DNA of 48,770 nucleotides from an uncultured Sphingomonas sp. (GTDB lineage: Bacteria; Pseudomonadota; Alphaproteobacteria; Sphingomonadales; Sphingomonadaceae). Both the position numbers and the translations under genes were made by a program. The DNA is taken from NCBI GenBank assembly GCA_913776045.1, contig CAJYOI010000061.1, positions 1-48,770 of the forward strand, written 5' to 3'. Under the pieces are notes generated by a model. The model was given only the letters and a program-made list of their open reading frames with translations. It was not told where the DNA came from and ran no database searches. How positions within the stretch are numbered: position 1 is the first letter of the stretch; each line of letters begins with the position of its first letter. This document shows, piece by piece, positions 108 through 38,630 of this stretch.

Positions 108-198
108 GGTCTCGCGAAGGCGGGGATAAATTCTGGCTGGCTAATGTGAATCTGACGACGTTCAGCGACTATTGATCCCCGCCTTCGCGGGGATGACT
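108..198. repeat. Palindromic intergenic repeat, family A copy 1
   Basis: Imperfect inverted repeat with outer arms built on GCGAAGGCGGGGAT and ATCCCCGCCTTCGCGGGGAT. The same arms and much of the centre (ACGTTCAGCGACTATTGATC) recur in opposite orientation at 22800-22919, and a looser copy is at 21970-22065. It lies between smc and the next minus-strand gene, where the RNA hairpin could help end transcription or protect the 3' end. No transposase is linked to it. Confidence 0.75.
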
Positions 199-8076: not shown

Positions 8077-8939
8077 TCGCAACCGGCTTCACCGGCGGCT
8101 GGCTCGACCGGTCCGACGCCGTCCGCGGGGACGAACCGGCGCTGGCCGCGGCGCTCGCCAACCCGCGCGCGCGGCTGATGCGGCTGGTCGGGGGCGATCC
8201 CGCGGTCGATCCGGACGGCGCGATCGCTTGGGATTCGATCGCGACGGCGGAGGGTACGCCGATCTTCCTCGGCTTCGATCGCGAGCAGCGACCCTTTTTT
8301 GCGGAAAGCCGACCGGGCGACACCGCCACGCCCGCCCGATCGGGCGCGCTGATGCGAATGCTAGACGCGATGCCGCCGGGCGATGCCGCGATCTTCGGCA
8401 CGGTGCGCAGCGTCACCGGCTGGCACGCGCGCAATGGCTTCTGCGCCAATTGCGGCACCGCGACCGCGATTATCAAGGGCGGCTGGGCGCGCTCCTGCCC
8501 CAACTGCGGGGCCGAGCATTTCCCGCGTGTCGACCCGGTCGTCATCATGCTCGCCGAACACGACGGTCGCGCGCTGGTCGGACGACAGGCCGCCTTCCCG
8601 CCGGGGCGCTACTCGGCATTGGCGGGCTTCGTTGAACCTGGCGAATCGCTGGAGGAAGCCGTCGCGCGCGAACTGTTCGAGGAGGCGGGCGTGCGCGTGT
8701 CCGATGTGCGATACCTCGCCAGCCAGCCCTGGCCGTTCCCGGGGCAGCTGATGCTGGCGGCGATCGCGACGGCGGAGAGCGATGTGCTGACGATCGACGC
8801 GAAGGAGATCGAGGACGCCTTCTGGGTAACGAAGGGCGAGGTTCGTGCGGCGCTGGCGGGGGTGGAGGATGCGAAGTTCCTACCGCCGCCACCCTACGCG
8901 ATTGCCCGAACGCTCCTAGAAGAATGGGCGGCCGCTTAA
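8073..8939 (+). CDS. nudC: NAD(+) diphosphatase / NADH-RNA decapping hydrolase NudC
   Basis: 288-residue NUDIX hydrolase cleaving NAD(H) to NMN(H) and AMP; family members also remove NAD caps from RNA. Domain order is a divergent N-terminal domain, a zinc ribbon (CANC and CPNC, 18 residues apart), then the NUDIX domain with the box G-x5-E-x7-REL-x-EE-x-G in GFVEPGESLEEA...RELFEEAG. The NudC-specific SQPWPFP motif follows. The GTG at 8073 overlaps the previous stop by four bases (GTGA) and gives the normal family length, although the frame stays open far upstream. Confidence 0.95.
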   Translation: MIATGFTGGWLDRSDAVRGDEPALAAALANPRARLMRLVGGDPAVDPDGAIAWDSIATAEGTPIFLGFDREQRPFFAESRPGDTATPARSGALMRMLDAMPPGDAAIFGTVRSVTGWHARNGFCANCGTATAIIKGGWARSCPNCGAEHFPRVDPVVIMLAEHDGRALVGRQAAFPPGRYSALAGFVEPGESLEEAVARELFEEAGVRVSDVRYLASQPWPFPGQLMLAAIATAESDVLTIDAKEIEDAFWVTKGEVRAALAGVEDAKFLPPPPYAIARTLLEEWAAA

Positions 8940-8940
8940 G

Positions 8941-9051
8941 CCCTCTCCCCTTCAGAGGAGAGGGTTTGGGAAAGGGGGGAGATGTCTCACCGAGACTAAC
9001 GCCCGCGGACAGGCCCCTCTCCCAACCCTCTCCCCGATCGGGGAGAGGGCT
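8941..9051. repeat. Palindromic intergenic repeat, family B copy 1
   Basis: Inverted repeat built on CCCTCTCCCC and GGGGAGAGGG blocks, with a second nested CTCTCCCCGATCGGGGAGAG hairpin. It separates nudC from the convergent pheA region, so it may act as a bidirectional 3' structure. Related C/G-block repeats occur at 19318-19418, 20017-20160, 35629-35728 and 38254-38355. Confidence 0.7.
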
Positions 9052-9160
9052 AAAAGATCGCCCGACCGATGACCTTTCCCCAGTCCACGCCGACTTGAAA
9101 CGCGACGAATCACAGCGCCGCAATTCCCACGATCAACGCGATCGCCCGCCGCTGCGTCAC
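9050..9160 (-). pseudogene. Mini-ORF coupled to pheA, interrupted by TGA
   Basis: A GTG at 9160 overlaps the pheA stop by four bases (GTGA), the coupling pattern used elsewhere here. It opens a 36-codon frame that reads as a small membrane protein: a basic start (VTQRRA), a hydrophobic stretch (IALIVGIAAL), then FVAFQVGVDWGKVIGRAIF and a TAG. Codon 17 is TGA, so as written the product would be 16 residues. The sequence on both sides of the TGA reads as one coherent single-span protein, which suggests a recent nonsense mutation (for example of TGG) or a base-call error. I do not recognise the family. It could also be chance; only the overlap and hydrophobicity support it. Confidence 0.4.
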
Positions 9161-18420: not shown

Positions 18421-19317
18421 ATGGCCGCACGCGCCTATTGGCAGGGACAGATCCGGCTCGCGCTCGTGTCGATCCCAGTCGAAATCTATTCGGCGACCAA
18501 ATCGGGTGCGCAGATTGCGTTCCACCAGGTCCACGAACCCAGCGGCAAGCGGGTGAAGTACGAGAAGGTCGTCCCCGGTCTGGGGCCGGTCGATACCGAC
18601 GAGATCGTGAAGGGCTTTGCGCTGTCGAAGGACGAATATGTCCTGCTCGAACAGGACGAGATCGACGCGGTGAAGCTCGAATCGAAGAAGACGCTGGAGC
18701 TGACCCAGTTCGTCGATGCCGACGAGATCGACGTGCTCTATTACGAACGCCCCTATTTCGTCGTCCCCGCCGACGATCTGGCGGAAGAAGCCTTCATCGT
18801 GCTGCGCGAGGCGCTGCGCAAGGCGCGCAAGGTGGGCCTGGGTCAACTGGCGATGCGGGGCCGCGAATATGTCGTCAGTCTGAAGCCCTGCGGTCGCGGC
18901 ATGGTGCTGGAAACGCTGCGCTACGCCGACGAGGTCAACAAGGCGCAAGGCTATTTCCGCGACATCCCCGACGACAAGCCCGATGCCGACCTGCTCGACC
19001 TCGCCTCGACGCTGATCGAGAAGAAGACGTCGAAGTTCGATCCGCAGGAATTCCACGACCGCTACGTCGATGCGCTGAAGGACCTGATCGAGCGGAAGAA
19101 GAAGGCGAAGGGCCGCAAGATTATCGAGGACGCGGATTCGGGCACACGTCCGTCGGGCGGCAACGTCGTCGACCTGATGGCGGCGCTGAAGAAGTCGCTG
19201 GAGGGGAAGGGGGGGACTGCCCTGTCGAAGGCCGCTCCCGCGAAGAAGGCACCTGCGCGCAAGCCCGCGGCGAAGAAGGAGCCGGCAAAGAAAACTCCGG
19301 CAAAGAAGCGTGCCTAG
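18421..19317 (+). CDS. ku: Non-homologous end-joining protein Ku
   Basis: Bacterial Ku homodimer that rings DNA ends and recruits LigD. The Ku core spans about residues 1-255 (opening AYWQGQIRLALVSIPVEIYS; DEIDVLYYERPYFVVP). The last 45 residues form a basic, low-complexity tail of Lys-Ala-Pro repeats (KKAPARKPAAKK, KKTPAKK), similar to histone H1-like tails in some bacterial Ku proteins that add non-specific DNA binding. The ATG at 18421 begins the conserved Ku N-terminus. It precedes ligD by about 100 bases that hold a family B repeat. Confidence 0.96.
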   Translation: MAARAYWQGQIRLALVSIPVEIYSATKSGAQIAFHQVHEPSGKRVKYEKVVPGLGPVDTDEIVKGFALSKDEYVLLEQDEIDAVKLESKKTLELTQFVDADEIDVLYYERPYFVVPADDLAEEAFIVLREALRKARKVGLGQLAMRGREYVVSLKPCGRGMVLETLRYADEVNKAQGYFRDIPDDKPDADLLDLASTLIEKKTSKFDPQEFHDRYVDALKDLIERKKKAKGRKIIEDADSGTRPSGGNVVDLMAALKKSLEGKGGTALSKAAPAKKAPARKPAAKKEPAKKTPAKKRA

Positions 19318-19418
19318 CTCCCCTCCCTGGAAGGGAGGGGCCGGGAGTGGGTGGCTCTCCACGAGCGCTACCGCCCGCGGCCGATCCGCCCCTGACCCCT
19401 CCCTGCCCGGGAGGGGAA
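19318..19418. repeat. Palindromic intergenic repeat, family B copy 2
   Basis: CCCTCCCTGGAAGGGAGGGG at the left and CCCCTCCCTGCCCGGGAGGG at the right, with a GC-rich centre. It fills the ku-ligD gap and ends a few bases before the ligD GTG, so it replaces any normal ribosome binding site spacing there. Confidence 0.8.
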
Positions 19419-19419
19419 T

Positions 19420-21954
19420 GTGAGCAGCGACCCGCTTGAAAAATACAACGCCAAGCGCGACTTCGCGAAGACCGCCGAGCCCGCGGGCGAGATCGCGGCC
19501 GGCACCGGCAATCGTTTCATGGTGCAGAAGCACGATGCGACGCGGCTGCACTGGGACTTCCGGCTCGAACTCGACGGCGTGCTCAAAAGCTGGGCGGTGA
19601 CCCGCGGGCCAAGCCTCGACCCGGCGGAAAAGCGCCTTGCGGTCAGGACCGAGGATCACCCGCTGTCCTACGCCGATTTCGAAGGGACGATCCCCAAGGG
19701 CGAATATGGCGGCGGCACCGTCATGCTGTGGGACGATGGGCTGTGGGCGCCGATCGAGGGCAAGAGCGCGAAGGATCTGGAGAAGGGCCACCTGCACTTC
19801 CGCCTGCAGGGGACACGGATGCGCGGCGAATGGCTGCTGATCCGCCTGAAACCGCGCGGCAAGGAAAGCCGAGAGAACTGGTTGCTCCGCAAGATCGACG
19901 ATGCTGACGCGGGCGGCGCCGACGAACTGGTCGAGGCCGGGCTGACCAGCGTGAAGACCGGTCGGACGATGCAGGAGATCGCCGAGGGCAAGACAGCGAA
20001 GGATCTGAAAAGCTGGCCCCCTCATAAATTCCTCCCCGGTACGGGGAGGGGGACCGCCAGCGACGCTGGTGGTGGAGGGGGCGGGCCGCAAACGACTCGT
20101 TCGAGGAGAACCCCCTCCACCGCTTCGCGGTCGCCGTCCCCGTTCCGGGGACGATTTCCCAAGTTCCGCCCGCTGCAACTCTGCACCCTCGTCGACAGCG
20201 TCCCCACCGGAAACGGCTGGCTCCACGAGATGAAGTACGACGGCTACCGCGCCTTGATCGCGGTCGCCGGGGGCAAGGCGAAGGTTTTCACCCGCACCGG
20301 GCTCGACTGGACCGATAAATTCCCCGGCATCGTCGCCGCCGCGGCGCAATTGTCCGTCGACAGTGCGCTGATCGATGGCGAGGTCGTCGCGTTCAAGGAC
20401 GGCAAGCCCGACTTCTCGACCCTGCAGAACGCGATCTCGAGCGGCGGCGATGGCCTCGCGATGTTTGCCTTCGACCTGCTCGAACTGGATGGCGAGGATC
20501 TCGCCCCCCGCCCGCTCGTCGAGCGCAAGGATCGACTCCGCCCCCTGTTCGATGGCGCTGACGATACGCTGCGCTACTCCGAACACGTCGTCGGATCGGG
20601 CGAGAAGCTGTTCGAGGCGATGTGCGCGGAGGGGTTCGAAGGCGTCGTGTCGAAACAGGCCGACGCCCCCTATCGTGGCACCCGGACGAAGGGCTGGGTG
20701 AAGACCAAATGCACCCTGCGCCAGGAGTTCGTCATCGTCGGCTGGTCGGAAAGCGACAAGGCCGGCCGCGGCTTCCGGGCGCTATTACTCGGACTGAACG
20801 GCCCGAATGGCTTACGCTATGCGGGCAAGGTCGGGACGGGCTTCTCGAGCGAATCGATGCTCGATCTGCGCGCGAAACTCGACAGACTCGCGCGCAAGAC
20901 CGCTCCGGTCGACGTCCCCCGCGCCGCCGCGCGGGGCGCGCATTGGGTCAGCCCGAAACTGGTCGCCGAAGTCGCCTTCGCCGAATTCACCGCCGAGGGC
21001 GTCGTCCGCCACGCGAGCTTCTTAGGCTTACGCGAGGACAAACCGGCGAACGAGGTCGTCGCGGAGAAGCCCGCCGATCCACCCGCCAGCACCGCGTCGA
21101 TCAAGATCAGCAGTCCCGACCGCATCATCGATCCGACCAGCAAGCTGACCAAGGGCCAGCTCGCCGCCTATTACGAAGCTTTGGCCCCGGCGATGCTGCC
21201 GTGGCTGGCCAACCGCCCGATCAGTCTGGTGCGGTGTCCGCAAGGTCGCGCGAAACAGTGTTTCTTCCAGAAGCACGACGCGGGGTCGTTCGGCGAGTTC
21301 GTCCACCACGTCGACATCCGCGAAAAGGACGGATCGACCGAACCCTATCTCTACATCGACAGCGCGGATGGGATGCTGGCGTGCGTCCAGATGGGGACGA
21401 TCGAGTTTCACGGCTGGGGAAGTCTGGTGTCGGACGTCGAGAAGCCCGACCGCATGGTCTTCGACCTCGACCCCGACGAAGGGCTCGGCTTCGACGACGT
21501 GAAACGCGCGGCGGAGGATATCAAGCAGCACCTCGCCGACATCGGTCTCACCAGCTACCCGATGCTGTCGGGCGGCAAGGGCGTCCATGTGATCGTGCCG
21601 CTGAAGCCCGATGCGGAGTGGCCCGCAGTCAAATCCTTCGCCGAACGCTTCGCCCGCGCTCTGGGGGAGGCCGAAAGCCACCGCTTCACCGCGAACATGA
21701 AGAAGGCGGAGCGAAAGGGTCGCATCTTCCTCGACTGGCTGCGCAATCAGCGCGGGAGCACCGCGGTGTTGCCATATGTCGTGCGCGCGCGGGCGGGGGC
21801 GGGCGTGGCGACGCCGGTGACGTGGAGCGAGTTGAAGCACATCGACAGCCCGGCGGCGTTCACGGCGCGCGATCTAGATACGCTGCTGAAGCGGGCAAAC
21901 GGCCGATCGCTGACGCATTGGGGGATTTCGGACCAGGTGTTGCCGGAGGTCTGA
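19420..21954 (+). CDS. ligD: Multifunctional DNA ligase LigD (PE-LIG-POL)
   Basis: ATP-dependent end-joining ligase, 844 residues, with all three modules. The N-terminal 3'-phosphoesterase has HDATRLHWDFRLELDG (His38, His44, Asp46). The central ligase has its adenylation Lys272 in EMKYDGYRALI plus the OB fold with KTKCTLRQEFVIVGW. The C-terminal primase-polymerase has the metal-binding FDLDPDE (Asp682, Asp684) and the SGGKGVHVIVPL loop. The GTG at 19420 begins MSSDPLEKYNAKRDF. Residues about 200-247, between PE and LIG, are encoded by a repeat like the intergenic ones and read as Gly/Arg/Ser/Pro low complexity. It forms an NHEJ pair with ku. Confidence 0.97.
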   Translation: MSSDPLEKYNAKRDFAKTAEPAGEIAAGTGNRFMVQKHDATRLHWDFRLELDGVLKSWAVTRGPSLDPAEKRLAVRTEDHPLSYADFEGTIPKGEYGGGTVMLWDDGLWAPIEGKSAKDLEKGHLHFRLQGTRMRGEWLLIRLKPRGKESRENWLLRKIDDADAGGADELVEAGLTSVKTGRTMQEIAEGKTAKDLKSWPPHKFLPGTGRGTASDAGGGGGGPQTTRSRRTPSTASRSPSPFRGRFPKFRPLQLCTLVDSVPTGNGWLHEMKYDGYRALIAVAGGKAKVFTRTGLDWTDKFPGIVAAAAQLSVDSALIDGEVVAFKDGKPDFSTLQNAISSGGDGLAMFAFDLLELDGEDLAPRPLVERKDRLRPLFDGADDTLRYSEHVVGSGEKLFEAMCAEGFEGVVSKQADAPYRGTRTKGWVKTKCTLRQEFVIVGWSESDKAGRGFRALLLGLNGPNGLRYAGKVGTGFSSESMLDLRAKLDRLARKTAPVDVPRAAARGAHWVSPKLVAEVAFAEFTAEGVVRHASFLGLREDKPANEVVAEKPADPPASTASIKISSPDRIIDPTSKLTKGQLAAYYEALAPAMLPWLANRPISLVRCPQGRAKQCFFQKHDAGSFGEFVHHVDIREKDGSTEPYLYIDSADGMLACVQMGTIEFHGWGSLVSDVEKPDRMVFDLDPDEGLGFDDVKRAAEDIKQHLADIGLTSYPMLSGGKGVHVIVPLKPDAEWPAVKSFAERFARALGEAESHRFTANMKKAERKGRIFLDWLRNQRGSTAVLPYVVRARAGAGVATPVTWSELKHIDSPAAFTARDLDTLLKRANGRSLTHWGISDQVLPEV
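20017..20160. repeat. Family B palindromic repeat inside ligD, translated
   Basis: Within the ligD frame lie several nested hairpins: CCTCCCCGGTACGGGGAGG (20031-20049), ACCGCCAGC/GCTGGTGGT (20053-20073), GGTGGAGGGGG pairing with CCCCCTCCACC (20071-20081 with 20111-20121), ACCGCTTCGCGGT, and GTCCCCGTTCCGGGGAC (20137-20153). The left and right halves are inverted relatives of each other and of the intergenic family B elements. The 144-base insert keeps the reading frame and adds about 48 residues. Confidence 0.8.
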
Positions 21955-21969
21955 CTCGCCCCACTCCCT

Positions 21970-22065
21970 CGTCATCCCCGCGGAGGCGGGGATCAATTCT
22001 GGCTGAACTTACGGAAAGAACTTCATGGTCAGCCACAATTGATTCACGCCTTCGCGGGAATGACG
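21970..22065. repeat. Palindromic intergenic repeat, family A copy 2
   Basis: Arms CGTCATCCCCGCGGAGGCGG (continuing into GGATCAATTCTGGCTGA) and TCAGCCACAATTGATTCACG (continuing into CCTTCGCGGGAATGACG) pair with a few mismatches. It lies between ligD and dedA and belongs with copies at 108-198 and 22800-22919. Confidence 0.85.
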
Positions 22066-22133
22066 GATGGGAGAGTGCGGCGCATCGCTTTGCCTCTGGC
22101 CTTTCACCGCATCATCGGCCACCACCCGCACCC

Positions 22134-22799
22134 ATGGTCGAGCAAATCCTGTCGTTCCTGGCGAACATCGTCATCAGCGTGATCGAAGCCACCGGCTATT
22201 GGGGCGTCGCGCTGCTGATGGCGATCGAAAGCGCCTGCGTGCCGCTGCCGTCCGAACTCATCATGCCGTTCGCGGGCTATCTGGTCAGCCAGGGTAAGAT
22301 GGACATCTGGCTCGCCGCGACCGCGGGCGCGCTGGGCTGCAATCTCGGCTCGATCGTCGCCTATGAAGTCGGCAAGCGCGGCGGGCGGCCGTTCGTGCTG
22401 CGCTACGGCAAATATCTGCTGATCGGCGCCGACGAACTCGACGCTGCCGACCGTTTCTTTGCGCGCTGGGGATCGGCGGCGGTGTTCGTGGGACGTCTGC
22501 TGCCAGTCATCCGCACCTTCATCGCCTTCCCCGCCGGGGTCGCGCGGATGAAGCTGGTGCCGTTCCACATCTACACTTTCGTCGGCAGCTGGCCGTTCTG
22601 CTTCGCGCTGGCCTGGGTCGGGCGCGAACTGGGCGAGGCCTGGCACGGCGACCCGCGCGTGCGGGCGGTGTTCCACTCGCTCGACGCGGTGATCGGGGTG
22701 GCGATCGTCGTCGCGGTGATCTGGTACGTCCGCCACCGGTTGAAGGCGATTCGCAAGTCCAAGGCCGAGCTGGCGGCGATCGACCGGGCCGAGGGGTAA
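22134..22799 (+). CDS. DedA-family membrane protein
   Basis: 221-residue polytopic protein of the DedA/VTT (SNARE-associated) superfamily. Bacterial members support undecaprenyl-phosphate or phospholipid flipping and membrane homeostasis. Hallmarks are the re-entrant segment with IESACVPLPSELIMPFAGYL and the FVGRLLPVIRTFIAFPAG motif with its conserved Gly and Arg residues. At least four hydrophobic segments and a cytoplasmic basic tail (RHRLKAIRKSK) are visible. The ATG at 22134 begins MVEQILSFLANIV. The frame is open far upstream, but that part overlaps ligD. It converges with the M16 peptidase gene. Confidence 0.92.
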   Translation: MVEQILSFLANIVISVIEATGYWGVALLMAIESACVPLPSELIMPFAGYLVSQGKMDIWLAATAGALGCNLGSIVAYEVGKRGGRPFVLRYGKYLLIGADELDAADRFFARWGSAAVFVGRLLPVIRTFIAFPAGVARMKLVPFHIYTFVGSWPFCFALAWVGRELGEAWHGDPRVRAVFHSLDAVIGVAIVVAVIWYVRHRLKAIRKSKAELAAIDRAEG

Positions 22800-22919
22800 C
22801 ACGCTTTTACGACCGTCATCCCCGCGGAGGCGGGGATCAATAGTCGCTGAACGTCGTGGGTCTCACGAAAGTGAGCCAGAATTTATCCCCGCCTGCGCGG
22901 GGATGACGGTTGTAAGCGT
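22800..22919. repeat. Palindromic repeat, family A copy 3, between convergent genes
   Basis: Outer arms ACGCTTTTACGACCGTCATC and GATGACGGTTGTAAGCGT extend the family core CCCCGCGGAGGCGGGG / CCCCGCCTGCGCGGGG. The element fills the space between the dedA stop and the stop of the convergent M16 gene and probably serves as a bidirectional 3'-end structure. It matches copy 1 (108-198) over its length in reverse orientation. Confidence 0.85.
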
Positions 22920-22939
22920 GATCCTCGCGAAAGCCGGCA

Positions 22940-25846
22940 TTACTTCGCCGACTTGCCCGGGGCCTTTGGCAACACCGTCATCGTCCACGCCTTCGCAGGT
23001 ACCAGATACTTCGCTGCCAGCGCCTGCAACTCCTGCGGCGTGATCGTCGTCAGGTCGCTCGCGATCGTGTCGAGCGCCTTGAGCCGCTTGGGATCGAAGC
23101 TGCCGCCCTCGGTCTGCATCAGCCAGAACTGGTTGCCCGTCGACAGCCGTGCGACATACTGAACAACCGGCACCAGCGCGCGGCGCAACTCGTCCGCATC
23201 GACCGGCTTCGCCACCAGGTCGGCAGCGATGTCGCGCGACAGGTCGAAGAAATAGCCGGTCTTGTCGGGCGGCACGCTGCCGATCGCCATGATCCGCCCG
23301 CCGCCGTTCAGGCCCACCGGCCAGTTCGACGCGACGTTGGGCGTATAGCTGATCCCCGCCGACGACCGCAGCTTGTCGAGCAACCGGTCGCGGAAGATCG
23401 CCGCGAGGACTTCCAGCTTGCGACCCGTCGCGATTCCGTCGCTGCCGCCGCCGGTCGGCCACGCGATGACCGCTGCCGCCTGCGTGTCACGCCCGTCGTG
23501 CGTGCGCGTGACGGGCGTCGTAGTCGGTGCGGGGAAGCGGATCGGCGCGGTCGCTATGGTCGCATCCTTGCGCGGCTTCAGTGCGCCCAGCGACGACGCG
23601 ACCGCGGCGATCGCCGCATCGGACTTCATGTCGCCATAGATCTGCACTTCGATCGGACCGCTGGCCAGGATCGGCTCCCACAAGGCGCGGAACGACTTGG
23701 CGTCGAGCTTCTCCAGGTCCGCACGCGTCGGCGTACCCCAGCGCGGGTCACCGTCGTGGAGCAGCCGGTCGAGGTCGCGCCCCAGCACCCCATCGGGCGA
23801 AGCACCCATCGACGCATAGCTCGCCAGCATCACCGCCTTGGCACGCGCGACGGGCTTCGGGTCCCAGCCCGGTGTGTTCAGCTTGGCCGCGATCAGCTTC
23901 AGCTGGTCGGCCAGGTCGGCGGCCGATGTCGTCGATCCGAACAGGAACGCATCTTCGTCCACCGCGAAGTCTAGCGAGATCCGCCGCCCGCTGGTGATGC
24001 GGTCGATCTCTTCCTGCCCCAGCTTGCCGATCCCGCTGGCGGCCAGGGCCAGGTCGCCGGCATAGGCGGGCGTCTGCCGATCCGACGGCAGCCCGGCGAT
24101 CCCGCGGCCGAAGCGGACACGGACGTAAACGCGACTCGCTTCCGACGGATTCTCGAACAGCAGCAGGTTCACGCCGTTTGCGAACGTGACCTTCTCGATC
24201 TTCGGGTCGTTCACCGCGACCGTCCGCGCGACGACCTTGCCCGGTGCGCCGAGCTTGGGCAGCGCGTCGAAGCCGAGCGTGCCGAGCTTGCTGCCGGTCG
24301 CCGTGCCCGGCTTCACCTCGGCGGTCAGCGCCGCCTGAAGCGCGGCGGCGGCATTCTCCTGCGGTTGCGGCGTGTTGACGACCCCGCGCAGCGCAACGCC
24401 CGAGAACACCGCCTTCGCCGACGCCTGCACCGCGGCCGGTGTGAACATCTTCTTGGCGATCGCATCCTGCAGGATGCCCAGACTTGTCTGCGGAGTGGTC
24501 GTCGTCTCCTTGATGTCGACCGCCTCGACCAGATCATCGGCCTTCTTCGCGCCCGCCTCGACCCGCGCTTGGTCGACCGACGCCTTCATCGCGGTCTGAA
24601 TCTCGGTCAGCTCGCGATCGATCTCGCCCTGCGTCGGCGGCGTCGCGATGGCGTCGGCGATGCCGGTGCGCACGTCCTTCAACGCTGTCTGCCAGTCGTT
24701 GCCGAGCGGCAGGATGTTCATCAGCGTCGCGTTGGCCGACCGCGAGATGTCTTCCAGGTTCGCGCCCGCCGAAATGAAGCTGCCGCCGCCGCGCGCGCGG
24801 CTTTCCAGCCGGCGGTTGACGATACGGATCGCGACCATGTCGATCATCCGCTTCTGGTTGAAGATCACCGTATCGTCGCCGACCGTCCACGGGCGCAGCC
24901 ACGCCAGGCTGACGAGCGGTGGCAGCTGCGGCTCGACCAGCGCCGCCGTGTCCGACTTGGCGGGCTTCGGGCTGCCGAAATCGGGGGCGGGGACGGGCGC
25001 GCCGTTGCCGCGCCAGTCGGCGAAATGCTTGACGATCGCGGCTTCGAACAGCGCCGGGTCCATGTCGCCCGAAATCACGACGACCGCGCGTTCGGGGCGG
25101 TACCAGCGGTCGTGGAACGCCTTCACGCTCGCCGCCGTCGCCGCGCCAAGCGTCTCGGTGGTGCCGATCGGCGACCGGTTGGCGAGCGGCTGGCCGGCGA
25201 AGAACACTTCGCGCGTCGTATCGCCCAGCCGGACCTGCGGCCCGGGCTGTTCGCGCGCTTCCGACAGCACGACCGGCCGTTCGGCATCCAGTGCGGCCTG
25301 GGTCAGGCTGGGGCCCGCCATCATGCCCGACAGGATCTTCAGGCTTTCGTCCAGCCCGCCCGCGTTCGCCATCGGCAGGTCGAGCTTGTAGACGGTCTGG
25401 GTGAAGCTGGTCGATGCGTTGGTATCGGCGCCGAACGTCACGCCCATCCGCTGCCAGATCCGCTTCGCCTCGCCGTCGGGAACGTGTTCTGATCCGCGGA
25501 AGCTCAGATGCTCGATCAGATGCGCGAAGCCGCGCTCGTCGTCCTTTTCGTGTAGCGAGCCGACGTCCATCCGCACCCGGATCGCGACCTGCCCCGGCGG
25601 CACCCCGTTCTTGCGCACGGCGTAGCGCAGGCCGTTCGGCAGCGTCCCGAACCGCCAGTCGGGATCGGGCGTGATGTCGCTGCCCTTGTACAACCACGCG
25701 CTCTTGTCGACCGGTACCGCCGGGGCCTGGATGGTCGCGGCGGGCTGAGGCGCCTGTTGCGCAGGCAGGGCGCCGGCGATCAGGAGGAAGGGAAGCGTGG
25801 CGAAGGCGACGCGGCTTAGCCGGGAAGGACGTAGCATCGCGCTCAT
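22940..25846 (-). CDS. M16-family zinc metallopeptidase, secreted
   Basis: 968 residues with a signal peptide (about residues 1-29, ending GALPAQ). It has two tandem M16 units. The first holds the inverted zinc motif H109-L-I-E112-H113 within GFAHLIEHLSFRGSEH, with the distal Glu downstream. The second (from about residue 520, KIEKVTFANGVNLLLFENP) lacks HxxEH, as is normal for the inactive half that closes the chamber. It should act in the periplasm on peptides, like pitrilysin or PqqL-type enzymes. The ATG at 25846 was used; an ATG three codons later is equivalent. It is divergent from nfuA. Confidence 0.93.
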   Translation of the reverse strand: MSAMLRPSRLSRVAFATLPFLLIAGALPAQQAPQPAATIQAPAVPVDKSAWLYKGSDITPDPDWRFGTLPNGLRYAVRKNGVPPGQVAIRVRMDVGSLHEKDDERGFAHLIEHLSFRGSEHVPDGEAKRIWQRMGVTFGADTNASTSFTQTVYKLDLPMANAGGLDESLKILSGMMAGPSLTQAALDAERPVVLSEAREQPGPQVRLGDTTREVFFAGQPLANRSPIGTTETLGAATAASVKAFHDRWYRPERAVVVISGDMDPALFEAAIVKHFADWRGNGAPVPAPDFGSPKPAKSDTAALVEPQLPPLVSLAWLRPWTVGDDTVIFNQKRMIDMVAIRIVNRRLESRARGGGSFISAGANLEDISRSANATLMNILPLGNDWQTALKDVRTGIADAIATPPTQGEIDRELTEIQTAMKASVDQARVEAGAKKADDLVEAVDIKETTTTPQTSLGILQDAIAKKMFTPAAVQASAKAVFSGVALRGVVNTPQPQENAAAALQAALTAEVKPGTATGSKLGTLGFDALPKLGAPGKVVARTVAVNDPKIEKVTFANGVNLLLFENPSEASRVYVRVRFGRGIAGLPSDRQTPAYAGDLALAASGIGKLGQEEIDRITSGRRISLDFAVDEDAFLFGSTTSAADLADQLKLIAAKLNTPGWDPKPVARAKAVMLASYASMGASPDGVLGRDLDRLLHDGDPRWGTPTRADLEKLDAKSFRALWEPILASGPIEVQIYGDMKSDAAIAAVASSLGALKPRKDATIATAPIRFPAPTTTPVTRTHDGRDTQAAAVIAWPTGGGSDGIATGRKLEVLAAIFRDRLLDKLRSSAGISYTPNVASNWPVGLNGGGRIMAIGSVPPDKTGYFFDLSRDIAADLVAKPVDADELRRALVPVVQYVARLSTGNQFWLMQTEGGSFDPKRLKALDTIASDLTTITPQELQALAAKYLVPAKAWTMTVLPKAPGKSAK

Positions 25847-35618: not shown

Positions 35619-38155
<2,537 letters not shown>

Positions 38156-38231: not shown

Positions 38232-38253
38232 GCGTCTCGTCGGGGCCGTCCTG

Positions 38254-38355
38254 CTCCCTTCCCCTTCAGGGGAGGGGCTGGGGGTGGGACCTATCCGCGG
38301 GCATGGAGAATGCGGCACCGCCCCACTCCAACCCCTCCCCTGAAGGCGAGGGGCT
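38254..38355. repeat. Palindromic intergenic repeat, family B copy
   Basis: CCCTTCCCCTTCAGGGGAGG at the left and CCCCTCCCCTGAAGGCGAGG at the right enclose a second inverted pair (CTGGGGGTGGG / CCCCACTCC). It is close in sequence to the element at 35629-35728, so katG is flanked on both sides by related repeats. Confidence 0.8.
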
Positions 38356-38630
38356 CAAGACGACTACCCCATCCTCTGAGCAGGACGTCGCGCCTCCGAA
38401 TTGCAATGTTGGAATTCATTTGCTTCGGTCCCGATCGGCCGCGCGGCCGTCGCTCCTTGACCTCGTAAGCTTCCCCACGCGCACCTGCGCAACGTGCGGC
38501 CCCCTTACGTCAAAAGTGACAAAAGTGACGAAGGCTGACGAATTGACCGCGGTATCGCAACTTTTGCCGGATGACCGCCGGTTCCGCAGGGCGATTGCGC
38601 CGCCGGGCTTGGCCGCGTAACCTTGTATCC
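38356..38630. other. 275-base gap before the sugar dehydrogenase
   Basis: Together with the terminator and repeat just upstream this makes about 475 bases without a gene. It is less GC-rich than its surroundings and has no convincing reading frame on either strand. The most striking element is the TGAC array at 38509-38547, listed separately. Confidence 0.55.
38509..38547 (+). promoter_or_regulatory. TGAC repeat cluster, possible operator
   Basis: GTCAAAAGTGAC is followed directly by AAAAGTGAC, then GAAGGCTGAC and GAATTGAC: one inverted pair plus four TGAC units at intervals of about 8 to 10 bases. It stands about 85 bases before the start of the sugar dehydrogenase, a natural place for a transcription-factor site. 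No regulator can be named. Confidence 0.35.

Follow-up and report, generated by a model that had tools for sequence, protein, structure and literature searches.

How does a stretch of DNA that looks like an intergenic palindromic repeat come to be translated inside a DNA-end-joining enzyme, and what could have brought it there? The question is raised by the ligD gene of an uncultured Sphingomonas sp., which lies in a stretch of 48,770 nt (the window). The features concerned are as follows.

18421..19317, + strand: ku, the NHEJ partner of ligD (Pfam Ku, 2.1e-47)
19420..21954, + strand: ligD, encoding DNA ligase D (NCBIfam), an open reading frame of 844 amino acids with a GTG start
19435..19902, + strand: 3'-phosphoesterase domain of LigD, residues 6-161 (TIGR02777); solved relatives align up to query residues 144-189
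20029..20155, + strand: family A palindromic element forming the LigD linker (model R1, fold, multicopy), read in frame 1 (ILPGTGRGT type)
20212..21042, + strand: ligase domain of LigD, residues about 265-541 (Pfam); in solved LigDs it begins at query residue 265

The modules of LigD follow the order phosphoesterase (PE)-ligase-polymerase, with the Pfam domains LigD_N (36-142), DNA_ligase_A_M (264-430), DNA_ligase_A_C (449-541) and LigD_Prim-Pol (577-825). The insert contains no stop codon and encodes residues about 204-246 (the FLPGTGRGTASDAGGGGGGPQTTRSRRTPSTASRSPSPFRG region) between the phosphoesterase and ligase domains, where the limits given by Pfam, NCBIfam and the solved relatives suggest a flexible linker. 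A covariance model, R1, was trained on 32 other family A copies of the same genome; with the LigD copy thus excluded it recognised positions 20029-20155 of the window with 110 bits (E 1.7e-20). The insert folds with -88.3 kcal/mol (z -4.9), and none of 200 shuffled sequences was equally stable. Against Rfam, positions 19250-23000 of the window gave nothing at any family's own threshold and four rows below it (two microRNA families, one sRNA family). It might be thought that the segment is an ordinary GC-rich linker of low complexity with a palindrome formed by chance, and the sole point in favour is that GC-rich linkers are common here. The score of a model that had not seen the LigD copy, 80 aligned pieces across the genome and the stability of the fold leave this a negligible probability, and it was rejected. 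The linker between the PE and ligase domains of LigD is translated from a family A palindromic element. The initial annotation had recognised a translated palindromic repeat at the right place in an open frame; its extent of 144 bases was slightly wide, the element measuring about 127 bp.

Family A units are about 130 bp long. Alignment and fold showed an inverted pair of hairpin units, in which two inverted arms (ATCCTCCCCGGCACGGGGAGGGGGACC-hairpin-GGTGGAGGGGG) enclose a variable spacer; the consensus ends are ATCC...GGAT, with neither a GTAG nor a CGTC tag. Three pairs of the inner hairpin stay paired despite two-sided changes in 8, 10 and 12 of the 32 copies. The expectation that the repeat would be found elsewhere in the genome was borne out: a DNA search gave the 80 aligned pieces, on both strands, and R1 gave 125 rows at E<=0.01, counted as about 66 distinct places, four of which are arms of DUF559 genes and the weakest of which may belong to family C. 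The lengths of 31 copies outside genes showed no bias modulo 3 (8, 12 and 11).

The insert had also been likened to the C/G blocks at 8941, 19318, 35634 (35629) and 38254. That it shares a family with them did not hold, since those blocks score only 17-25 bits with R1. They belong to family C, which is separate from A and has its own alignment (A3) and model (R3). A third family, B, starts with CGTCATCCCCGCG and shows the CGTC end and head-to-head dimer of CGTC/dRS3-like repeats (alignment A2). The copies of C and B in the window, with no strand assigned, are:

8939..9052: family C element (alignment A3; R1 19.7 bits)
19318..19418: family C element that occupies the space between ku and ligD (R1 only 24.6 bits; R3 73 bits; locus L030, an R3 training copy)
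35629..35730: family C element (alignment A3; R1 18.5 bits)
38252..38357: family C element (alignment A3; R1 17.3 bits)
113..197: family B element
21971..22064: family B element directly 3' of ligD (alignment A2; R2 81 bits, training copy)
22815..22907: family B element (alignment A2; R2 105 bits, training copy)

The same linker was searched across the Sphingomonadaceae with models trained on copies of the own genome, those in LigD being excluded. The set comprised 35 whole-genome loci and the best 80 of 330 candidates, without genome G007 and second LigD copies; because the two locus sets overlap in strains, distinct counts use 101 of the 115. Elements occupied the linker in 65 of 115 loci and in 58 of 101 distinct genes (A 31, B 23, C 4, by best-scoring model), while no element was detected in the other 43. 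Outside the linker no match at E<=0.01 was seen in ligD coding sequence, except in L154 and L056, where an element overlaps the start of the gene by a few bases. At least 32 changes among the four linker states are needed on the LigD tree, in support of the suggestion that these elements are gained and lost in this linker. Family A was read in frames 1, 2 and 3 in 8, 16 and 1 of the 25 copies scored. The locus of Leaf33, the nearest named relative (L173), shares the insertion site, but its element includes a stretch of N, and in L053 the linker is interrupted by a frame break; both loci stayed in the tree. A segment lying within the A copy of L047/L202 was considered as another multicopy family, but its genome yielded a single full match and a partial one.

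One clear case that suggests replacement came from the sister genes L160 and L142, where B stands in the place of A and a scar of A is left. It recalls IS1272, for which the replacement of a stem-loop by another element is described (PMC5678879), although that element is an IS of 1.9 kb that encodes a transposase of its own. The turnover might instead reflect homologous recombination, the linkers being exchanged between species via the conserved domains rather than inserted. Recombination tracts do occur in the ligD genes of the S. faeni group, where blocks of 0-1% divergence adjoin blocks of 4-16% (L193/L195), and in L193/L046 the flanks adjoining the linker differ by 9 and 6%, more than most of the gene does. 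In L142/L160, by contrast, the blocks beside the swap are 2 and 4% diverged against 6-14% for most others (range 3-29%), and the A scar precedes B. Moreover, exchange can create neither the first insertions nor a second site in truB. We therefore consider recombination a quite unlikely source of the turnover.

Does the element do something for LigD? In one group of genes pN/pS was 0.78 in the linker and 0.71 in the spacer, compared with 0.03 and 0.08 in the conserved flanking domains. These values, the 43 LigDs in which no element was detected and the frequent swapping of families speak against recruitment, i.e. a useful DNA or mRNA hairpin or a useful basic Gly/Arg/Pro linker acting through translational pausing, DNA binding or length tuning. 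The linker carries a mean net charge of +8 to +11 when an element is present and of +8 when there is none, which could be counted in favour of such a role. So could the arms inside ligD of the S. faeni group, in which none of 23 silent sites varied, compared with 133 of 192 silent sites of the domains (p 2.6e-11, 11 genes); this points to constraint at the nucleotide level rather than plain neutrality, although five other groups gave no significant effect. The arms of intergenic copies adjoining ligD also look conserved by eye, so that the constraint need not concern LigD. Recruitment thus appears improbable, and we infer that what LigD has in the insert is, in the main, a basic linker that it tolerates and not an acquired function.

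LigD is not the only host. Copies within genes were sought among open reading frames spanning an element; ten proteins were put through Pfam and the others were judged by flank length and GC3. Among 58 places of family A scanned in the own genome, in-frame copies were found in LigD and in five further genes recognised by Pfam (TruB, GlyRS-beta, methylmalonyl-CoA mutase, an ImuB-like protein and GluQ-RS). These six are a minimum, because only ten candidate proteins went through Pfam. The names GluQ-RS and ImuB go beyond the Pfam matches (tRNA-synt_1c; IMS, IMS_C and DUF6504) and are what we take these proteins to be. The truB gene is a second site used by more than one family, with A and/or B at one position in 12 of 21 genes.

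A parallel with the Rickettsia palindromic elements (RPEs), already drawn in the initial annotation, is apt for a dispersed palindrome whose in-frame translation forms the linker between the PE and ligase domains. RPEs are palindromes of 100-150 bp found between genes and in frame in conserved genes, and the product of one such gene, gmk, has been shown to be active, according to the accounts in PMC2229807 and PMC3733652. By description the elements are alike in size, dispersal and in-frame occurrence in conserved genes, and truB is a common host, with RPE-1 in R. conorii truB and A or B here. The RPE hosts belong to a different order from Sphingomonas. What differs here is that three families use a single linker across dozens of genomes and that there is a candidate partner gene. 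Family B, with its CGTCATCCCCGCG start and head-to-head dimer, resembles the CGTC-REP/dRS3 repeats as described in PMC3733652, whereas family A lacks the CGTC tag as well as GTAG. In that account CGTC-REPs have no dedicated transposase (Di Nocera 2013); intragenic cases lie in DNA-repair and tRNA genes, including truB of S. alaskensis and E. litoralis, and in two Xanthomonas species recB is interrupted at the same site (PMC3733652). The available text of the same paper does not mention the Sphingomonas LigD linker and names a DNA ligase only for O. terrae; 'sphingo' does not occur in its main text.

Which enzyme could move these elements? A RAYT-type transposase had been suggested as something to look for. 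No match to PF01797 was found in the own genome, while five of 14 control genomes were positive. Within the genus it was absent from 26 of 28 genomes, the own one included, and one of the two positive genomes (G006) has no family A. RAYT was therefore rejected as the mobiliser. A different candidate came from the elements themselves: at C19:45371-45814 of the own genome an A element contains a DUF559 gene in place of its spacer. Over 57 nt its left arm differs from the A consensus at three positions, and its right arm and both arms of a second DUF559 gene (C41) align as well; the arms of the third (C45) do not.

Matched inverted arms, either of family A or C-like, proved to be the rule for the DUF559 genes of the genus. 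With a score cut of 20, which was set after the same- and cross-locus scores had been seen, 61 of 72 genes of the genus had them; lower scores were found for 11 of these 72, for one of three outgroup genes and for 12 of 29 in other genera of the class. Controls were clearly different: 50 of 57 DUF559 genes against none of 336 random spans and two of 77 ligD gene ends, and 17 of the 29 new loci covered in the class-wide test against none of 193 spans. The 57-gene test did not include four loci whose flanks were cut, which were then fetched whole and counted among the 72; matches inside very long open reading frames, one fragment and locus L356 were omitted. The median arm score was 31.5 within loci and 11.0 across loci. 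Loci of the same family or from related genomes have arms in common. For this reason the highest cross-locus control scores reach far (99th percentile 74.4, maximum 143.5), further than any of the 61 same-locus scores, and the contrast sits in the medians.

Arm type also followed the phylogeny of the proteins. In a tree of 75 DUF559 proteins the A-armed genes fell into one clade, which included one C-like gene (L369); the A label required 4 changes compared with 17.1 after shuffling, and all labels 17 compared with 36.1. Rows of family A, counted on both strands among the 73 or fewer candidates scored in each genome, ranged from 5 to at least 73 in the 13 genomes with an A-armed DUF559 gene and from 0 to 8 in the 10 without (p 7e-5). 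With a cut of 10 rows, set after the copy numbers had been seen, six independent pairs gave six agreements, or five and one tie, and no disagreement. One genome (G005) has two A-armed genes and only 5 rows of A. No family B arms were recognised by eye at any of the 72 genes. We consider DUF559, a predicted Vsr-like PD-(D/E)XK endonuclease, the candidate partner of families A and C.

An explanation that we regard as probable is that families A and C derive, as MITE-like elements without a coding gene, from palindromic elements that encode DUF559, and we infer that they are mobile. The DUF559 protein would have its cognate arms, or hairpins, as its target, and repair of the breaks would insert an element or replace an existing palindrome. 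Most insertions in genes would be lost, and those that keep the frame in tolerant inter-domain linkers or surface turns, as in the six host proteins named above, would persist, all the more easily because stop codons are scarce in family A.

It could also be supposed that a separate enzyme moves the elements, the DUF559 proteins being cargo or repair nucleases that live between palindromes by chance. Caulobacter VsrA, of the same Pfam family as the arm-flanked genes described here, is read as a very-short-patch repair nuclease and causes a DNA-damage response in vivo in cells without cytosine methyltransferase, as reported in PMC12907096, a paper without any word beginning 'palindrom'. In addition, the sequences compared showed no transposition, excision or empty site of A or of a DUF559 unit, and B, which has no DUF559 partner among the 72 genes, is nearly as frequent in LigD linkers, so that DUF559 cannot explain all of the turnover. 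Yet random cargo is not expected to give matched arm pairs, co-segregation of arm type with the protein phylogeny and a link with copy number, and such a separate mover is in our view unlikely. The preferred arrangement, a DUF559 gene between cognate arms, resembles the REP/REPIN-RAYT (TnpA-REP) system, in which inverted hairpin pairs flank a dedicated enzyme gene and many non-coding copies lie elsewhere; it differs in having a DUF559 nuclease instead of a tyrosine transposase and in the lack of both GTAG and PF01797. No account of a link between DUF559 and palindromes was found in the literature searched.

Taken further, there is perhaps an even chance that these elements form an undescribed class of mobile element in many alphaproteobacteria, composed of DUF559 genes between cognate palindromic arms and swarms of non-coding copies. 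It would spread by cutting hairpins and copying or joining into the break, turning the LigD linker and the TruB turn into hot spots. Every palindrome would then be a landing pad, which would explain why unrelated palindromes swap at one site.

Translated palindromes as such were already known, and how palindromic repeats spread when they lack a known mobiliser has long been puzzling; DUF559 may provide a testable partner in the case of A and C though not of the CGTC-type B. The LigD and TruB sites offer dozens of natural replicates of mobile-type DNA turned into protein, with frame and family known, so that tolerance and recruitment can be tested directly against each other. If the proposal is true, mobile DNA would continually rewrite the linkers of proteins in these bacteria, including that of their DNA-end-joining enzyme.

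The ligD gene lies close to ku in a genome of 3.15 Mb, of which the window is contig C61, and carries a palindromic element between the stretches encoding its 3'-phosphoesterase (PE) and ligase domains:

18421-19317, ku, upstream of a 101-bp palindromic element that is followed by ligD
19420-21954, ligD, 3' of ku and the 101-bp element
20029-20155, palindromic element of family A, inside ligD

The initial annotation held that a dispersed palindromic element is translated here as the LigD linker, and this was correct in substance. A covariance model of family A, built from 32 copies other than the one in LigD, matched 20029-20155 with 110 bits (E 1.7e-20). The element has the layout ATCCTCCCCGGCACGGGGAGGGGGACC-(small hairpin)-GGTGGAGGGGG-spacer-reverse complement. 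Pairing in the small hairpins is kept despite sequence variation, both sides being changed at three pairs in 8, 10 and 12 of the 32 copies. A search of this genome for further copies, which the annotation had proposed, gave 125 matches at E<=0.01, by our count 66 places, the weakest of which may belong to family C instead. At E<=1e-8 family A was present in 25 of 28 genomes of the genus and in none of 18 other genomes of the order. Among named records, Sphingomonas sp. Leaf33 had the closest LigD, with 89% over its best-matching segment.

The LigD repeat had also been likened to the intergenic blocks at 8941, 19318, 35634 and 38254, but the model of family A scored these at only 17-25 bits. 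They constitute a separate family, C, whose layout resembles that of A with different arms. The third family, B (93 bp, starting CGTCATCCCCGCG), matches the description of CGTC REPs in PMC3733652.

A comparison of LigD linkers across the genus showed that the insert is one case of many. The sample comprised 115 loci, of which 35 came from whole genomes and 80 were the top-ranking of 330 in a named collection; 101 had distinct domains. Using models of the three families with no training copy from inside LigD, and assigning double matches to the better score, we found palindromic elements in the linkers of 65 loci (A 36, B 25, C 4), or 58 of the 101 distinct LigDs (A 31, B 23, C 4). Beyond the linker, the ligD coding sequences gave no match at E<=0.01 except few-base overlaps at the gene start in two loci (L154, L056). 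The LigD linker is a site occupied repeatedly by different palindromes. The 25 A copies scored were read in frame 1 (8 copies), frame 2 (16) or frame 3 (1). On a LigD tree built without the linker, the four linker states required 32 changes against a shuffled mean of 47.8, which shows partial inheritance of the states as well; the figure was 21 for A taken alone, 17 for B and 3 for C, all being minimum counts on a quick tree with gains and losses pooled. In the linker of loci L047 and L202 an extra inverted-repeat segment is nested in the first-hairpin loop of the A element, with the frame kept.

Two sister loci, about 0.035 changes per column apart on the LigD tree, differ in their element: L142 has A, while in L160 seven bases matching the start of A (TTCCTCC) precede a B element, as if B had taken the place of a former A. 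A foreign recombination tract is unlikely at this linker, because the 90-base blocks adjoining it differ by 2 and 4% whereas most other ligD blocks differ by 6-14% (range 3-29%). Recombination tracts are present in ligD of the S. faeni group, and exchange may account for some linker swaps, for example that between L193 and L046. In the gap before ligD (about 480-600 in L180-L208), some S. faeni-group genomes have family C and others a B-type element, in 6 and 4 of 11 aligned loci respectively; judged from this gap, replacement seems to occur between genes too. In L053 (genome G033, about 1467-1617) the linker A element has shrunk to a 23-bp hairpin and no longer keeps the frame, leaving ligD broken into a PE and a ligase-polymerase ORF.

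Eleven S. faeni-group LigDs (L044, L046, L181, L182, L195, L199, L201, L204, L206, L207 and L208) share the same A insertion. Their pN/pS was 0.78 in the linker, compared with 0.03 and 0.08 for the domain stretches on either side, so the linker residues are of little importance. In the same genes all 23 fourfold sites of the A arms were invariant, whereas 133 of 192 such sites varied in the domains (p 2.6e-11, indicative only, the sites lying on one tree). These invariant sites count against simple neutrality. No significant effect was seen in five other element-carrying groups (C 8/24; B 4/17, 6/23 and 8/25; A 3/18). The arms of intergenic elements adjoining ligD in the S. faeni group appeared by eye to be equally conserved, and we read the frozen sites as a constraint on the element arms rather than on LigD function.

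Other genes also carry elements in frame. Family A does so in at least 6 of the 58 places scanned in the window's genome (36 plus 22, the latter including weak matches), the Pfam-recognised hosts being LigD, an ImuB-like protein, GlyRS beta, GluQ-RS, TruB and methylmalonyl-CoA mutase, where the insert falls between the two domains. The corresponding figures were at least 1 of 37 for B and 0 of 7 for C. TruB is a second recurrent site, with elements in 12 Sphingomonas genomes (L274-L284 and L287): among 21 truB genes of the genus readable in one frame, ten have A (L274-L283) and one has B (L284), while L287 has A and B adjacent at the same turn. Aligned to 1sgv, the TruB insert falls in a short turn bounded by residues 161 and 167; aligned to 7yse, the GlyRS-beta insert likewise falls in a short turn, bounded by residues 378 and 385. 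Di Nocera et al. (PMC3733652) list truB among the REP-carrying genes of S. alaskensis and E. litoralis and cite RPE-1 in R. conorii truB. Outside recognised genes, A copies had on average 4.81 of six frames open (3.76 when shuffled) and B copies 1.85 (2.68). Such a surplus would ease the survival of A in genes, yet B is common in LigD linkers too. Two individual segments were also seen: a B copy read in frame within the C-terminal portion of a nucleotidyltransferase that is uncharacterised (PF14907; L126, 624-1781, + strand), and a different repeat-like segment (..FGIHGAVD..WILKQVQDDG) at the truB turn of L288, which matched neither the A nor the B model.

The RAYT-type transposase that had been suggested was not found in the genome: a PF01797 search gave no match there, 5 of 14 control genomes being positive, and the domain occurred in only 2 of 28 genomes of the genus, one of them without family A. 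Instead, the LigD repeat led us to DUF559 proteins as a candidate enzyme for the repeats. The three DUF559 genes of this genome are:

contig C19, 45371-45814 (L067, 2371-2814), DUF559 gene at the spacer position between two facing half-elements of family A
contig C41, about 209649-210106 (L374), DUF559 gene framed by arms of family A, at the position of the short spacer in non-coding copies
contig C45, 47589-47888 (L375), DUF559 gene with only weak arms

When 220-base flanks were compared, matched inverted arms (score >=20, a threshold chosen after same- and cross-locus comparison) bordered 50 of 57 DUF559 genes and none of 336 random same-size spans drawn from LigD and TruB loci; 2 of 77 ligD gene ends reached this score. 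With further loci the figures were 61 of 72, and 2 of 3 for outgroup genes. In other genera of the class 17 of 29 loci scored >=20, against 0 of 193 control spans. Median scores were 31.5 within and 11.0 between loci. Cross-locus scores extend far above their median (99th percentile 74.4; maximum 143.5, exceeded by no same-locus score) because arms are shared among loci belonging to the same family or to related genomes.

In a weakly resolved DUF559 tree (75 proteins, 107 columns) all A and A-variant arms fell in one 26-row clade (SH-aLRT 96), together with three weak rows and one C-like row. No B-armed gene was seen among those examined. Thirteen genomes with an A-armed gene had 5-73 A matches and ten without had 0-8 (p 7.4e-5, kinship ignored). 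On a LigD tree of 21 of these genomes, with a cut of 10 A matches picked when the counts had already been seen, gene and count agreed in six independent pairs in most random pairings; the remainder gave five agreements and one tie, and no pair disagreed (median p 0.03). A DUF559 relative of known structure is the endonuclease-like protein 3hrl (E 1.7e-14), and PMC12907096, on Caulobacter VsrA, describes DUF559 proteins as Vsr-like PD-(D/E)XK nucleases.

That paper contains no word beginning 'palindrom', and, judged by titles and abstracts, we found no paper tying DUF559 to palindromic repeats in the open-access library searched, outside which lie most subscription papers and preprints. The same library gave nothing on Sphingomonas with REPIN and RAYT and, for LigD with in-frame palindromic elements, only papers unrelated by title and abstract. 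As far as these searches reach, neither the link to DUF559 nor the site in LigD has been reported. Translated palindromes are of a kind already known; should a partnership of DUF559 with palindromic repeats be shown to mobilise DNA, it would represent a new one.
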